Source of the DNA: Pirellula sp.
GTDB lineage: Bacteria; Planctomycetota; Planctomycetia; Pirellulales; Pirellulaceae
Assembly (NCBI GenBank): GCA_021300155.1
Contig: JAJTID010000015.1
Location: forward strand, 58,470-122,469
Length of the DNA: 64,000 bases
Direction: 5' to 3'
The translations under genes and the position numbers were made by a program. This document shows, in pieces, positions 12,418 to 21,365 of the stretch. Under the pieces are notes generated by a model. It made no database searches. It had not been told where the DNA came from and was given only the letters and a program-made list of their open reading frames with translations. Position 1 is the stretch's first letter. Each line of letters begins with the position of its first letter.

Positions 12418-14649
12418 ATGAAAAAAGGGACAAAGAGAGCTATTCCGAAAAGGAAATCACGTTCCATCCAGAATAGCAAAGCCAACATTCCGAATGGAGT
12501 CGCTGTCAACAAAAAGGCTCGAAGTGCGCTTCGTAAGGCGTATGACTGTGACGACACTGGCGAGAGAGTGGAACTGATTCGTAGCGCTGTCGCGATCGAT
12601 GAGAATTTCATTGAAGCGTGGAATCAGCTTGGATGTCATGAAACCGATGTACTCAAGGCCGAAGCCGTCTTTAGCCATGCGATCGCTATTGGAGAGGTAA
12701 AGTATGCTTCTGGGAACGGCGAATGGTCCGACCAGGAGTATTGTTCCTACTCGGCAGCGATGACGAATTTGGCAAAAGTTCGCGAGATTCAACATCGATT
12801 TGAAGAGTGCATCGAATTGTTGGAACTCATTGTGCAAAAAGGAATGCCAGATGCGCCCCATGCACTGAACAGTTTGCTCATGCTTTATCTGCAGACACGT
12901 CGATACGATAAGGCCAAAGCGCAGCTAGATGAATACGGCGATGAAGAAGGTGATGGCGACGCCATTGTCGATTACAGTCGATTGTTGATTGCATTGAATA
13001 CTGGAGCGAGCGAAGAGGAGTGTTACGGTCTTTTTGAGTTAGCCATGTTCACAATGCCGGAGGTCGCAGATTACTTGGTCGGCAATCGGGATTTACCGAA
13101 TAGCGTCTCCATGGATAGCTACGAAGAGATTGCCGCAAGTGTAGCGTTCATGCTTCAATCGGCTTGGCGAGCCACTGATCGTCCCACTTTGTGGCTTCGA
13201 TCCGCGCTTGCTACTTTCGAGAAGGACTCAGAATCGGAAGATGACGACCTTTCGGATTTGGATTTGGACGAGTTGATTGAAGATGCTTTGGGAGAAGAGC
13301 AGGAAGAGGTGGTCTGGCGATTAGAGTCGGTAATGTATGAAAAGAAGATCGCCTATTTCGTCATGGAATCGGAATCTGACTCGCTGATCTATTTTTGGTT
13401 AGGTCGTGGGGAGCCCGGTCCTGAAACAGCGTACCGTGTGTTCCTCTTGGCCATTTGTGAACCCATGGAGGGTGAATCGAAACGGCCGATCCGGTTGGAA
13501 TCGAGCGAAGAGGGCCTGATTCGTGATATGAAAATGGAGCTATCCGCGTTGGAAATCGAGTTCGAATGGAGCGATTACACGGGGAAAGAATTGCTACTCC
13601 AAACTGCGAAACAGATGGACAACGCGATCCATGTGGATGAGTTTGAAGACGAGGAGCAATTGACGGAGTTACTTCAGGAGCTTCCCCTCGATTCTGACGT
13701 GGAGTTCGTGGTTGCCATCAAGCAGATTCCAACGTTTATTGAATTCGAGGGTACGAACGTTCGGCCGTACTTTGGAGTTGTTCTCGACAGCTCGAACGAT
13801 TCGATTCGTACCCAATCGCTCTCACCGAAGGGGTTTGAAAAGCAGCATATCCAGAAACTGCTTGGTAATGCATGCCTGAATCCGATGGTTGGGGACCCCA
13901 TGCGACCTCAATCGATACAATTTAGCGATCCCGACATCGCTTTAAGCGTCAAGGATTGGCTGCAGGAGATCGGGATTTCGACAACCATCGGGAATCAGTA
14001 CGATGACACGATCGACCGGCTCATCCAGATGTTGATCGATTCAGCAAAGCAATCTGGCTTGCCAAGCGTGACCGAAATTGATGGAGTGGATGATGCAATG
14101 TTGGAAGAGTTTTACGAGACTGCGCGAGAGTATTTTTTAGTAGAACCCTGGACCGTCGTCCCCGGGGCGAATCTCCTGGAGGTCCAGCCAGACGAGTCTA
14201 AAGATCTCATGCTCTATTGTGTCGTCTTAGGACAGATGGGAGAAGTGATGGGGCTGTCGCTATTCTCTAGTTTAGATGACTTTAACCGTGCGAGTGGTGC
14301 TGGCCAGGACAACGAAGAGGACGTGGAACCTGTGACCGCCATTTCGCTCTTGTTCAATGAGGATTCCGAGATACACCCTTCGGATTTGAACTTGATAGAA
14401 AATGGCGGGATTCCGATCGCAGGGGCTTTTGCGTACCCGACAATCGTCGCGGCCGTCGAGGGAGAAGTGCAAGCATGCAACCGGGAACAGTTGATGCACA
14501 TCATGAAGGCGACCCGAATCCTCATCGAGTATTTTTCCAAGCGCCCGTTCAAACTAAAGTCGGAGCTCGATAAGCCACGTACCGTTGAATGGTCGTATGG
14601 CAACGAAACGAAACAAGCTGTCGTGACCTTTCGCAATGTGTTTGGTTGA
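12418..14649 (+). CDS. Large acidic TPR-like protein, function unknown
   Basis: 743 residues with a lysine/arginine-rich first 30, then TPR-like helices (AWNQLGCHETDVLKAEAVFS, LAKVREIQHRFEECIELLEL, LYLQTRRYDKAKAQLDEYGD). An acidic low-complexity segment (SEDDDLSDLDLDELIEDALG) follows near residue 265-290. The C-terminal half has two stretches resembling domains I know as DUF6930 (MRPQSIQFSDPDIALSVKDW) and DUF7309 (FYETAREYFLVEPWTVVPGA), found together in cytoplasmic bacterial proteins of unknown role. No signal peptide. AAGGA lies 6 bases before the ATG. It stands alone between two gene-poor patches. The domain names are from memory and need a profile search. Confidence 0.72.
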   Translation: MKKGTKRAIPKRKSRSIQNSKANIPNGVAVNKKARSALRKAYDCDDTGERVELIRSAVAIDENFIEAWNQLGCHETDVLKAEAVFSHAIAIGEVKYASGNGEWSDQEYCSYSAAMTNLAKVREIQHRFEECIELLELIVQKGMPDAPHALNSLLMLYLQTRRYDKAKAQLDEYGDEEGDGDAIVDYSRLLIALNTGASEEECYGLFELAMFTMPEVADYLVGNRDLPNSVSMDSYEEIAASVAFMLQSAWRATDRPTLWLRSALATFEKDSESEDDDLSDLDLDELIEDALGEEQEEVVWRLESVMYEKKIAYFVMESESDSLIYFWLGRGEPGPETAYRVFLLAICEPMEGESKRPIRLESSEEGLIRDMKMELSALEIEFEWSDYTGKELLLQTAKQMDNAIHVDEFEDEEQLTELLQELPLDSDVEFVVAIKQIPTFIEFEGTNVRPYFGVVLDSSNDSIRTQSLSPKGFEKQHIQKLLGNACLNPMVGDPMRPQSIQFSDPDIALSVKDWLQEIGISTTIGNQYDDTIDRLIQMLIDSAKQSGLPSVTEIDGVDDAMLEEFYETAREYFLVEPWTVVPGANLLEVQPDESKDLMLYCVVLGQMGEVMGLSLFSSLDDFNRASGAGQDNEEDVEPVTAISLLFNEDSEIHPSDLNLIENGGIPIAGAFAYPTIVAAVEGEVQACNREQLMHIMKATRILIEYFSKRPFKLKSELDKPRTVEWSYGNETKQAVVTFRNVFG

Positions 14650-17284: not shown

Positions 17285-18565
17285 ATGACAATCTATTTTG
17301 CGAGAGGTTCCAGAGATTCCGTTTTGGGGGTGCCGGATTATTTGGAAGCGATCGAGACCACCATTCGATTGAGGGGGGGCGTACGCAAAGTTCTAGCGGT
17401 TCCGCCGGATCATACTCGGCTTGATTCGCAGGCGGGGCCGATTACCCATGCAGTCCTCAAAGTGTTAGGTGACAAGCTAACGGACGTCATGCCTGCGTTG
17501 GGCACCCATTCGGCGATGAATGAGGAAGAGCTAACGAAGATGTATGGTGATTTTCCTCGCCAATTGATTCGAGTCCATCATTACAAGACGGACGTCGACA
17601 CATTGGGATACGTGGACGCAGACTTTGTTTCGACGGCGACGGAGGGGCATTATCAGGAGGCTTGGCCTGCTCAGGTCAACAAAATGATATCTCGCGGGGA
17701 CCACGATTTGATATTATCGATTGGTCAGGTGGTTCCACACGAAGTCATTGGGATGGCGAACTATACGAAGAATATTTTTGTGGGGACGGGGGGCAACGCT
17801 GGTATCGACGGCAGCCATTACTTGAGTGCGCTCTATGGCATGGAACGCATCATGGGGCGATGCGATACACCGCTTCGCAAGATACTCAATCGTGCGGCAG
17901 ACTTGTTCCTAACACAGCGTCCGGTGGTGTATGTGTTGACCGTAGTTGAGTCCACATCAGATCAAGGGCCTGTGGTGCGCGGATTGTATATCGGAGACGA
18001 TCATTCCGTTTTTACGATCGCGGGTGAGCTCTCTTCGCAAGTCAATTGCTTTCGGATTGATGAAGCTCCTAAGAAGATCGTTGTTTGGATGGACCCAAGC
18101 AAGTACAAGAAAACATGGGTTGCGAACAAATCGATTTACCGTACACGGATGGCGATCGCAGACGGTGGTACGTTGGTCGTGATTGCACCGGGCGTCGCTA
18201 GGTTTGGCGAACACGATGATGTCGATGGATTGATTCGAAAGTATGGCTATCGGACGACGCCCGAAGTGATCGATATGGTTGCTAAGAATGCAGATCTTCG
18301 CGGTAACCTTTCGACCGCGGCACACTTGATTCATGCTTCTCCCGAAGATCGATTTCGTGTGGAGTACTGCACGAATAAGCTTAGTGCTTCAGAGCTTGAG
18401 TCTGTCGGATATTTTCATCGAGACCCGGATGCTGCGATTCGAGAATATCAGATCGAGTCGATTCAAGATGGTTGGAATACAAGTGTTAATGGAGAACGGT
18501 TTTACTTCATACGCAATGCTGGGCTCGGGCTCTGGATGCATCGTAACCACCCACATGCGTTTTAG
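17285..18565 (+). CDS. LarA-like nickel-pincer enzyme (lactate racemase family)
   Basis: 426 residues of the LarA/DUF2088 family. The residues known to act in Lactiplantibacillus LarA can be placed: D42 and R45 in PPDHTRLD, H75 in ALGTHSAMNEEE, H152 in VVPHEV, K162 in NYTKNIFVG and H178 in DGSHYLS. The spacings H152-K162 (10) and K162-H178 (16) equal those of the racemase. The loop around the Lys is divergent from the usual GGxK. Such enzymes racemise or epimerise alpha-hydroxy acids using a nickel-pincer nucleotide made by LarB, LarC and LarE, none of which is in the window. ATG 17285 has a weak ribosome site. The kinase-like/PP2C gene starts 9 bases after its stop, so they are probably co-transcribed. 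Confidence 0.85.
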   Translation: MTIYFARGSRDSVLGVPDYLEAIETTIRLRGGVRKVLAVPPDHTRLDSQAGPITHAVLKVLGDKLTDVMPALGTHSAMNEEELTKMYGDFPRQLIRVHHYKTDVDTLGYVDADFVSTATEGHYQEAWPAQVNKMISRGDHDLILSIGQVVPHEVIGMANYTKNIFVGTGGNAGIDGSHYLSALYGMERIMGRCDTPLRKILNRAADLFLTQRPVVYVLTVVESTSDQGPVVRGLYIGDDHSVFTIAGELSSQVNCFRIDEAPKKIVVWMDPSKYKKTWVANKSIYRTRMAIADGGTLVVIAPGVARFGEHDDVDGLIRKYGYRTTPEVIDMVAKNADLRGNLSTAAHLIHASPEDRFRVEYCTNKLSASELESVGYFHRDPDAAIREYQIESIQDGWNTSVNGERFYFIRNAGLGLWMHRNHPHAF

Positions 18566-18574
18566 TTTCGCCCT

Positions 18575-19822
18575 ATGATCGAAGCAAAAAACACCCAACG
18601 TGCTATCGTACGAATCGGTTACGATGGCCGAGTTTACAAACTGTTTCAGGGGCCAGAGGCGCAGAAACGGTTCGACACCGAATGCCGTACTTTGATTTAT
18701 TTGGAGCAACGAAAGTGCCCCTTTGTTCCTCGGTTGATAGCGGCCGATCGAGAGCGACTGGAAATGGTTACCTCGAACTGTGGTGCACGCGTGGAAAGGT
18801 TAGGTGAAGATCGGATCAAGGAGATCTTCCAGGAACTCGAGCAGTATGGAGTCCGGCACGATGATCCCTTCCTTCGCAACATCACTTATCGGGCATCCGA
18901 CGGACGATTCTGTGTAATTGACTTTGAGTTTTCGACTATCCTCGACGAAACCGCATCGGCCCATCCGTCGGTGGAGACCACCACGCCGGCGGGTGACGGA
19001 ACTCGCGACATCCAGTGGTCTGCCATGACGCATCCTGGGACATTTCGTCCTAACAATGAAGATCGATTCCTCGCGATGTTGTTTGATGAACGGGGGGTTC
19101 GTTATTTAGGGAAGCAAGGGACCATGAACACCAGCGGTGCCGATTTGCTTTTTGCCGTTGCCGACGGAATGGGTGGCGAACGGTCCGGTGAATTGGCTGG
19201 AAAGATTGCCCTGGACAATATTACGCGGTTGTTGCCGAGAGCGCATCGTTTGTCGGACTTGAATCTGGCGGAGTCAGCACCTCAAATTTTGAAAAGCCTT
19301 TACAGCTCGATACACCAGGAACTGGTACGGCTCGGTACATTCGATCCTTTGTGCGTCAATATGGGAGCGACTCTGACAATGGTGTGGATCCATCGTTCCA
19401 TGGTGATGTTTGCACACGTCGGTGACTCACGGCTCTATCGATTGCGTAAGAATGTTGATTCCGCAAATCGCATGGCGCAGGTGTCCGAGGATCACACGTA
19501 TGTAGGGTGGTTGCGTCGCAATGGAAAGATCAACGAGCGAGAATCGCGATTTCATCCGCGAAAGAGCATCCTCTCCAAGGCGCTGGGAGCAGGCAATCAA
19601 TTCGCTGAACCACAGGTAGGAAGCTTTGTTCTGGATCCGGGGGAAAGGCTGATTTTGTGTACGGATGGTGTGACCGACGGGTTGTGGGACCGAGCGATAG
19701 AGGAGATTGTCCTTTGTCCCGAGTCTTCTATGGTTGATCTGGCGCCCGCTCAACGATTGGTTTTGTCAGCCGTCACTGAATCAGGGCGGGACAATTCGAC
19801 AGCCATCGTTATCGAATCCTAA
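18575..19822 (+). CDS. Fusion of minimal kinase-like domain and PP2C phosphatase
   Basis: 415 residues. Residues 1-125 read like a stripped-down protein kinase of the Bud32/WaaP kind: VYKLF with K22, E36 in FDTECRTL, GVRHDDPFLRN giving H-x-D97-x4-N102, and DFEF at 116 in the DFG place. Residues 148-415 are a PP2C-family Ser/Thr phosphatase: RPNNEDRF, ADGMGGERSGELAG, HVGDSRLYRL, LCTDGVTDGLW and GRDNSTAIVI carry the metal-binding Asp residues. A polypeptide with opposing activities, or a pseudokinase sensor steering a phosphatase, are both possible. No membrane segment. Located 9 bases after the LarA-like gene, 70 bases before the photolyase. Confidence 0.85.
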   Translation: MIEAKNTQRAIVRIGYDGRVYKLFQGPEAQKRFDTECRTLIYLEQRKCPFVPRLIAADRERLEMVTSNCGARVERLGEDRIKEIFQELEQYGVRHDDPFLRNITYRASDGRFCVIDFEFSTILDETASAHPSVETTTPAGDGTRDIQWSAMTHPGTFRPNNEDRFLAMLFDERGVRYLGKQGTMNTSGADLLFAVADGMGGERSGELAGKIALDNITRLLPRAHRLSDLNLAESAPQILKSLYSSIHQELVRLGTFDPLCVNMGATLTMVWIHRSMVMFAHVGDSRLYRLRKNVDSANRMAQVSEDHTYVGWLRRNGKINERESRFHPRKSILSKALGAGNQFAEPQVGSFVLDPGERLILCTDGVTDGLWDRAIEEIVLCPESSMVDLAPAQRLVLSAVTESGRDNSTAIVIES

Positions 19823-19892: not shown

Positions 19893-21365
19893 ATGATGGT
19901 TTCGAAAGTACCTGCGATTCGTATTCGATTGGCAAATCCAGTTGGAATGCGAGACGGAGACTATGTCCTCTATTGGATGACCGCTTTTCGGCGAACCCGG
20001 TATAACTTTGCCCTCCAGCGGGCGGTTGAGATTGCAAACGAGCAAGGGAAGCCGCTTCTCATCTTCGAAGGCCTCCGATGCCACTATCGATGGAACAGCG
20101 ATCGGTTCCACAAGTTCGTTATCGATAGCATGCTCGACAACGCAGCAGCCATTGCTGTGTCCAATGCGACGTATTCGGCATGGGTCGAATCAGGCCCCAA
20201 CGAAGCGAGTGGCATGGTGGAGTTGCTCGCAAGCCGAGCGTGCGCGGTGGTGTCGGATGACTTTCCATGTTTTTTTCATCCAACACTTTACTCCAGGATT
20301 GCAAACAACTGGCCCTGTCGATTGGAACTCGTCGATTCCAACACTGTTGTTCCTATGGTTCAGCTAGATCGGACATTCACGGTTGCTCATTCATACCGTC
20401 GTGCCATACAAAAATTGATCTACGAGGAATTACCAGAGTTTCCTGTCGAATCTCCCCTTTCGTTGTTGCGGACGACTAGGTTGAAGAAGTTGCCTAACGA
20501 CTTTTTGGAACGATGGCCCGTTCCGATCGACAAGAAAGCGATCGCTTGGCTAAAACAGATCGATCTCAATGGGTTGCCCATCGATCATCAAGTTCAGCCG
20601 ACGACTGAACAGGGTGGTGAAATAGCAGCGCGGGCTTCATTACATCGATTCGTAAGCGCTCGATTATCAAGTTATACAGTGGATCGAAATGAACCGGAGA
20701 AATCAGGGGCTAGTGGGCTTTCGCCGTACATGCACTTTGGCAACATGAGCCCTCACGAGGTCTTCCAGGCAATTGCTTCTGCGGAAGGCTGGCGTCCAGA
20801 GAAGTTATCCAAACCCAATGGCAAAATGGAGGGCTATTGGAATATGAGTCCGGATGCGGAAGCGTTCATGGACCAATTGATGACATGGCGAGAGATTGGT
20901 TTCAACATGTGTATCCGCGACCGGAACTATATGAAATATGAATCTTTGCCGGATTGGGCGCAGCAGACACTCGAGGAGCACGCGTCAGATCCGCGACCTC
21001 ATGTGTATTCGTTGGAAGAATTCGAGAAAGCACGGACTCACGATCCGTTATGGAATGCCGCTCAGAGACAGCTAGTGCGAGAGGGGCGGATTCACAATTA
21101 CTTGCGAATGCTGTGGGGCAAGAAGATATTGCACTGGACCGAAACGCCACGGCAAGCCTTAAAAGTCATGATCGAACTGAATAATAAGTATGCACTCGAT
21201 GGCCGAGATCCTAACTCGTATAGTGGCATCATGTGGGTGTTAGGTCGCTACGACCGTGCATGGGGACCAGAACGTCCTATCTTCGGAAAGATACGCTACA
21301 TGACTAGCGAGTCAACACAAAACAAGTTTCAGGTGAAGCAATACATTCGTAAGTTTAGCGATTAG
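19893..21365 (+). CDS. phr: Class II CPD photolyase
   Basis: 490 residues. Repairs UV-induced cyclobutane pyrimidine dimers using blue light and FADH. The C-terminal half is characteristic of class II enzymes: FMDQLMTWREIGFNMC, PDWAQQTLEEHASDPRPHVY, ARTHDPLWNAAQRQLVREGR, LRMLWGKKILHW and LDGRDPNSYSGIMWVLGRYD. The N-terminal part (VLYWMTAFRRTRYNFALQRA) matches the photolyase alpha/beta domain. The two Met codons at 19893 and 19896 are both possible starts. Likely a stand-alone repair gene carried in this plus-strand run; birA follows 21 bases later. Confidence 0.94.
   Translation: MMVSKVPAIRIRLANPVGMRDGDYVLYWMTAFRRTRYNFALQRAVEIANEQGKPLLIFEGLRCHYRWNSDRFHKFVIDSMLDNAAAIAVSNATYSAWVESGPNEASGMVELLASRACAVVSDDFPCFFHPTLYSRIANNWPCRLELVDSNTVVPMVQLDRTFTVAHSYRRAIQKLIYEELPEFPVESPLSLLRTTRLKKLPNDFLERWPVPIDKKAIAWLKQIDLNGLPIDHQVQPTTEQGGEIAARASLHRFVSARLSSYTVDRNEPEKSGASGLSPYMHFGNMSPHEVFQAIASAEGWRPEKLSKPNGKMEGYWNMSPDAEAFMDQLMTWREIGFNMCIRDRNYMKYESLPDWAQQTLEEHASDPRPHVYSLEEFEKARTHDPLWNAAQRQLVREGRIHNYLRMLWGKKILHWTETPRQALKVMIELNNKYALDGRDPNSYSGIMWVLGRYDRAWGPERPIFGKIRYMTSESTQNKFQVKQYIRKFSD

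Follow-up and report, generated by a model that had tools for sequence, protein, structure and literature searches.

A truncated kinase-fold domain partnered with a PP2C phosphatase and linked to type II glutamine synthetase in Planctomycetota and Verrucomicrobiota

We analysed a 64,000-nucleotide stretch of a Pirellula sp. contig (JAJTID010000015.1, positions 58,470 to 122,469), hereafter the window. The original prediction, made from the letters of this DNA, had placed a kinase-like domain fused to a PP2C phosphatase at 18575-19822, and both the coordinates and the reading frame proved right. The features of the locus are as follows.

17285..18565, + strand: protein with a LarA N-terminal domain, 426 aa, 9 bp upstream of the fusion gene (Pfam Lar_N, 1.3e-9)
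18575..19822, + strand: mini-kinase/PP2C fusion protein, 415 aa plus stop, an uninterrupted open reading frame
18575..18949, + strand: kinase-fold domain, residues 1-125
18587..18601, + strand: K5-[ND]6-T7-x-R9 turn of strands 1 and 2, at the glycine-rich loop position
18638..18640, + strand: Lys22, the ATP-orienting lysine of strand 3
18680..18682, + strand: Glu36, the helix C glutamate
18857..18880, + strand: catalytic loop H95-x-D97-x4-N102
18920..18928, + strand: metal-binding D116-F117-E118 (DFE)
18950..19009, + strand: linker, residues 126-145, of variable length in the alignment and with pLDDT <50 at 126-140
19010..19819, + strand: PP2C phosphatase domain, residues 146-415, with Asp163, Asp197, Asp364 and Asp406 kept

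The start of the protein, MIEAKNTQR, was kept across relatives; hence residues 1-125 are the true N-terminus. The highest 19-residue hydropathy was 1.05 and no membrane segment was evident, which supports the prediction of a soluble protein. The full-length model had a pLDDT of 85.5 and a pTM of 0.64. The LarA-like gene lay beside the fusion gene in 21 loci, all from the window's genus, and is probably co-transcribed with it in this genus only. Directly downstream, at 19893-21365, is a gene for a 490-residue photolyase-like protein whose FAD_binding_7 match was below its cut-off. Elsewhere in the window, at 12418-14649, a 743-residue protein carries DUF7309 and DUF6930 domains and TPR-like repeats.

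About 120 residues had been read as keeping kinase residues in kinase order, and Lys22, Glu36, His95-x-Asp97-x4-Asn102 and Asp116-Phe-Glu118 were confirmed. Far from varying freely among orthologues, Lys22, Glu36, His95, Asp97, Asn102 and Asp116 were the same in all 94 relatives, which come from Planctomycetota and Verrucomicrobiota. The Asp116-Phe117-Glu118 motif and Lys5 of the K5-[ND]6-T7-x-R9 turn were likewise present in all 94, and Thr7 and Arg9 in 92 each. Part of the relative search had used the pattern FCVIDFEF, which biases the counts in that stretch; therefore, conservation was recounted on 43 sequences found mostly by profile. The six catalytic positions held wherever the residue was present (41 of 41 for Lys22, 42 of 42 for Glu36, and 43 of 43 for His95, Asp97, Asn102 and Asp116), the remainder being gaps. 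Glu118 was kept in 41 of 43, and the two exceptions were remote matches.

An AlphaFold2 model of the kinase domain, built with 62 relatives, had a mean pLDDT of 92.6. It consists of strands 2-6, 10-14 and 20-24, a helix at 29-45, strands 54-58 and 63-66, a helix at 78-89, the catalytic loop, strands 103-106 and 111-114, and a low-confidence end. These elements correspond to a kinase N-lobe followed by helix E, the catalytic loop, and the metal-binding loop with the DFE strand. Neither a glycine-rich loop nor an activation segment was present in the model, and helices F to I were likewise absent. As predicted, the sequence has no GxGxxG, and the K-[ND]-T-x-R turn occupies its place. Stand-alone family members stop approximately 6-30 residues past DFEF. 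A Foldseek search with the model returned 255 PDB structures at E ≤ 1e-3, and the 50 listed were kinases or kinase-fold proteins. The best match was the Ark1 tRNA kinase (8yv5; E 1e-6, TM 0.67, 27% identity), followed by PRPK/Bud32 and then Rio2. The N-terminal domain is thus modelled as a kinase fold and not as some other domain.

Residues 1-137 alone scored 24.8 bits against Pfam APH (PF01636; cut-off 23.2 bits), and the whole protein scored 21.4 bits. The match of the window kinase spans profile positions 133-199 of 239 only, and the domain is only partly APH-like. All 62 aligned relatives matched APH (best 7.5e-9) and 53 of them also matched the Kdo/WaaP kinase family; a weak match to Pkinase was observed in one. 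The similarity to kinases is beyond chance, as residues 1-137 alone passed the APH cut-off, six positions are invariant, and the AlphaFold2 model and its PDB matches are confident. The kinase fold, the lysine, the helix C glutamate, HxDx4N and DF[GE], by which the protein-kinase-like superfamily is recognized, are all present in the window kinase. Therefore, we concluded that the mini-kinase belongs to this superfamily, in which case it would be expected to carry out ATP-dependent phosphotransfer. A Hanks-type Ser/Thr kinase (Pfam Pkinase) was ruled out, since the glycine-rich loop, the APE activation segment and helix F are missing.

Comparison with known small kinases gave partial likenesses. 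Bud32/PRPK and Rio2 share the compact N-lobe, but they have about 200 residues or more and further C-lobe parts. We know of no PP2C or type II glutamine synthetase (GSII) partner of either. The minimal kinases OspG and NleH, which also include a fold match (4lrj), are secreted effectors that lack the activation loop and helices G-H (PMC4588518); they differ from the mini-kinase in being injected and larger and in having no tie to PP2C or GSII. The APH/choline kinase (CAK) cluster is the only sequence family above its cut-off, with residues 1-137 alone, and shares the catalytic loop and IDFE, and within it the change from DFG to DFE accompanies an altered glycine loop (PMC1821047). The mini-kinase differs in having no substrate-binding helical subdomain and in its partial profile match. 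ArkI/Ark1, the archaeal tRNA kinase (COG2112, AQ578 family), is similarly small and has DFE rather than DFG.

The last two likenesses would fit a kinase acting on RNA or a small molecule (an Ark1-like tRNA 2'-kinase or an APH/choline-kinase-like enzyme) beside an unrelated PP2C: Ark1 is the best fold match, APH is the best Pfam match, and DFE is common to ArkI (PMC9095486) and choline kinase (PMC1821047). However, ArkI has a P-loop, HGQ in place of HRD, and C-terminal YKR helices proposed for RNA binding (PMC9095486), whereas the mini-kinase keeps H-x-D-x4-N and has a linker alone after DFE, ending before any C-terminal helices. Membership of ArkI/COG2112 was rejected because the defining HGQ and YKR helix are absent. 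PP2C enzymes normally take phosphate off protein Ser/Thr, so the constant partner of one is most simply a protein kinase; by the same general knowledge, a PP2C partner fits protein Ser/Thr phosphate better than RNA or metabolite phosphate. We hold an RNA or small-molecule substrate to be highly improbable and take the mini-kinase to be a putative protein kinase.

The second domain was identified as a PP2C by Pfam PP2C_2 (2.8e-10; 40.6 bits against a cut-off of 24), and Pfam and NCBIfam together placed it at about residues 150-414. The NCBIfam Stp1 model gave 160 bits across residues 152-414, below its equivalog cut-off of 230, indicating that the domain is a PP2C but not Stp1 itself. D163, DGMGG at 197-201, D364-G365 and D406-N407 were invariant in 37 aligned full-length relatives. 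In a Foldseek search of the full-length model, PstP, Stp1 and tPphA were matched with E values down to 3e-21. Residues 146-415 are thus an active-looking PP2C, which would be expected to be catalytic. PphA, Stp1 and PstP share the fold and the metal-binding residues; they differ in being neither fused to nor encoded with such a mini-kinase. A defence system was also considered and rejected: PADLOC gave one weak match, to the PP2C part alone.

The distribution known from the best 80 of 178 relatives listed by the genome-contig search comprises at least two phyla, Planctomycetota and Verrucomicrobiota. Of the 27 genomes examined in the window's genus, 26, the window's own among them, matched the protein over all or almost all of its length, a few being cut short; in the same search the other genera of the family gave PP2C matches only. 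The fused form occurs in Planctomycetota and some Verrucomicrobiota. Most Verrucomicrobiota encode the kinase on its own, as a protein of approximately 125-146 residues, with a stop codon and a new start at the place of the linker and the PP2C gene next downstream. The two genes overlap by 4 bases at 12 of the 48 listed junctions, and at many others the gap is no more than about 20 bases. The kinase is the better conserved part: identities between the split Verrucomicrobiota proteins and the window protein were approximately 50-69% for the kinase and 40-54% for PP2C. In a quick tree, Verrucomicrobiota and Planctomycetota each formed one group, and at least six changes between the fused and split forms were required, which indicates that the two parts act together; that one pair occurs both fused and side by side is also a classical sign of joint action. 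No plasmid-borne copies were found when they were looked for.

Two further mini-kinases were observed. The window's genome has a second, stand-alone one of 183 aa with an HGDRASRN loop (L169:3629-4180, - strand; G000:C202) and no PP2C in the same frame, and similar copies were matched in three other genomes (G024, G021 and G012). A 456-residue frame in another genome (L186:1133-2500; G669) has a divergent mini-kinase domain at its C-terminal end and a SAM methyltransferase in mid-protein.

A comparison of gene neighbourhoods revealed one neighbour that recurred across taxa, a 337-residue GSII with intact catalytic motifs. Its best NCBIfam model was GlnII, at 381 bits against a cut-off of 500, so the linked gene is a GSII-type subfamily and not a typical GlnII. 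Co-occurrence was examined in 388 Verrucomicrobiota genomes, 78 of which have the kinase (two further weak matches were not counted). A GSII with at least 66% identity to the reference was present in all 78, and in one of the 310 kinase-less genomes (Fisher p 4e-82, in a test that ignores shared ancestry). This single kinase-less genome is small, and in seven others GSII is more distant (58-61%) and the kinase is absent. GSII adjoins the kinase at 65 of 79 Verrucomicrobiota loci, being divergent and upstream by 128-322 bp at 58 and co-directional downstream of PP2C at seven; at the other 14 it is unlinked. In Planctomycetota outside the window's genus, GSII is co-directional and upstream where linked. 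In the window's genus the kinase and PP2C are fused and GSII is unlinked; that of the window's genome lies on another contig (G000:C35:9997-11004).

Neighbourhood and co-occurrence might be inherited synteny with no functional tie, a reading that gains from the disregard of phylogeny in the Fisher test, from the single tree group formed by each phylum, and from exceptions of both kinds (a kinase without a GSII match in L016/G423, L019 and L053; GSII without the kinase in G164 and G763). However, the association spans two phyla and more than one gene arrangement, which must have changed at least three times among linked loci, and co-occurrence is retained at the 14 unlinked loci. In addition, one genome carries an extra kinase-PP2C fusion, and just downstream of it lies a second, divergent GSII-type gene with 47% identity (L179, G814:C6). 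Inheritance of gene order alone is thus very unlikely, and a functional tie to GSII is the reading we retain.

The promoters at these loci were also compared. A sigma-54 -24/-12 site was found in all 66 distinct divergent GSII/kinase intergenic regions, always directed towards GSII and about 60-175 bp upstream of it (for example, L064, L134 and L152). The site had at most one mismatch in 65 of the 66, against an expectation of approximately 0.5 in shuffles and 3 in random segments. Kinase-ward sites in the divergent regions were as numerous as in shuffles, and sigma-54 control of the kinase gene was rejected. Kinase-free GSII genes often have a sigma-54 site too. Since the site faces GSII and also precedes kinase-free GSII genes, it indicates nitrogen-type control of GSII rather than of the kinase. 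The GSII of the window's genome and most GSII genes of the linked type in Planctomycetota have no sigma-54 site.

Given the tie to GSII, the process most likely served is nitrogen assimilation, and the most likely substrate is GSII. We regard the fusion protein as real and probably functional. On the whole evidence, we give a slightly better than even chance to a nitrogen-assimilation switch that works by reversible phosphorylation, its likeliest target being GSII or its direct regulator. The window protein would then be a two-domain signalling enzyme with opposed activities, in which the PP2C domain would remove the same phosphate that the kinase domain adds to GSII or to a direct GSII regulator. 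The fused form would hold both activities in one chain, and in the split form a pair of adjacent genes would do the same job. Computation establishes the fold, the conserved residues, the constant PP2C pairing, the co-occurrence with and closeness to GSII, and the sigma-54 promoter of GSII; from these we infer catalysis, a protein rather than a small-molecule substrate, GSII as that substrate, and the direction in which it is controlled. A comparison of kinase-linked and kinase-free GSII revealed no kinase-specific phosphosite, and the differences tracked the whole subfamily. Reversible phosphorylation with 14-3-3 proteins controls plant GSII (PMC8668187).

The substrate could instead be another nitrogen-control protein, for example a transcription factor or PII, as for PphA in cyanobacteria, and GSII would then be only a neighbour in the regulon. 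PII was present in all 18 kinase-bearing genomes tested, and tPphA was the top PDB sequence match for the PP2C domain. PphA is a PP2C that acts on Ser49 of PII, and which kinase takes part is not yet settled (PMC10651672). However, the match to tPphA is not specific, because two other PP2Cs of the same genome, used as controls, matched tPphA equally well or better; PphA/PII specificity was therefore rejected as evidence. PII is also nearly universal, being present in 13 of 14 control genomes, and no PII gene was among the recurrent neighbours, whereas GSII was. We consider a nitrogen-control substrate other than GSII or its direct regulator unlikely.

A phosphorylation switch on GSII also presupposes a catalytic mini-kinase. 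The original prediction had left a minimal kinase and a pseudokinase side by side, and the former is favoured. Residues 1-125 might act as a nucleotide sensor that binds ATP or ADP and sets PP2C activity allosterically with no phosphotransfer, as the missing glycine-rich loop, activation segment and helix F would allow. However, the lysine, glutamate, histidine, catalytic aspartate, asparagine and metal-binding aspartate are invariant in the 94 and in the 41-43 sequences, beyond what binding needs, and the stand-alone relative at L169 has no PP2C in its frame. A pseudokinase is quite unlikely, because none of the catalytic or metal-binding residues varies in either phylum. The absence of helix F and later parts could nevertheless mean weak or no protein-kinase activity. 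Without helix F and an activation segment, the catalytic mini-kinase that we favour probably needs a partner surface, and its substrate site is probably completed by that of PP2C, itself or GSII.

The suggestion of a self-contained switch in one protein held in part. The two activities are fused here, and fusion is not essential, because most Verrucomicrobiota encode both parts as separate adjacent genes; "self-contained" is doubtful, because the pair is tied to a GSII gene. AceK and GlnE are also single polypeptides, and each puts a covalent modification on a metabolic enzyme and takes it off again. In AceK both reactions share one active site, and GlnE transfers AMP to GSI, whereas the mini-kinase and PP2C are two separate domains, linked to GSII. 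The arrangement had been called one that could not be named, and a kinase and PP2C in one bacterial protein have already been noted in general terms (PMC12088040). A literature search gave no description of the mini-kinase, its PP2C pairing or its GSII tie; on that search, the novelty lies in this particular truncated family of kinases, in the PP2C that always accompanies it and in the association with GSII.

Here, we tentatively propose that this approximately 125-residue kinase family, ending at DFE, and its dedicated PP2C form the first reversible phosphorylation switch for bacterial GSII, a possibility to which we give rather less than an even chance. To our knowledge, neither bacterial type II glutamine synthetase nor nitrogen control in Verrucomicrobiota or Planctomycetota has a known covalent regulator, and the literature searched gave none for the former. 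The two-gene, sometimes one-gene kinase/phosphatase module at GSII is a direct and testable candidate for such a regulator. The mini-kinase also raises the question of the minimum kinase fold needed for catalysis, as it stops at the usual start of the C-lobe core and may depend on a partner protein for completion. If our proposal is true, few natural protein kinases would be smaller than those of this family, which extends across Verrucomicrobiota and into part of Planctomycetota.
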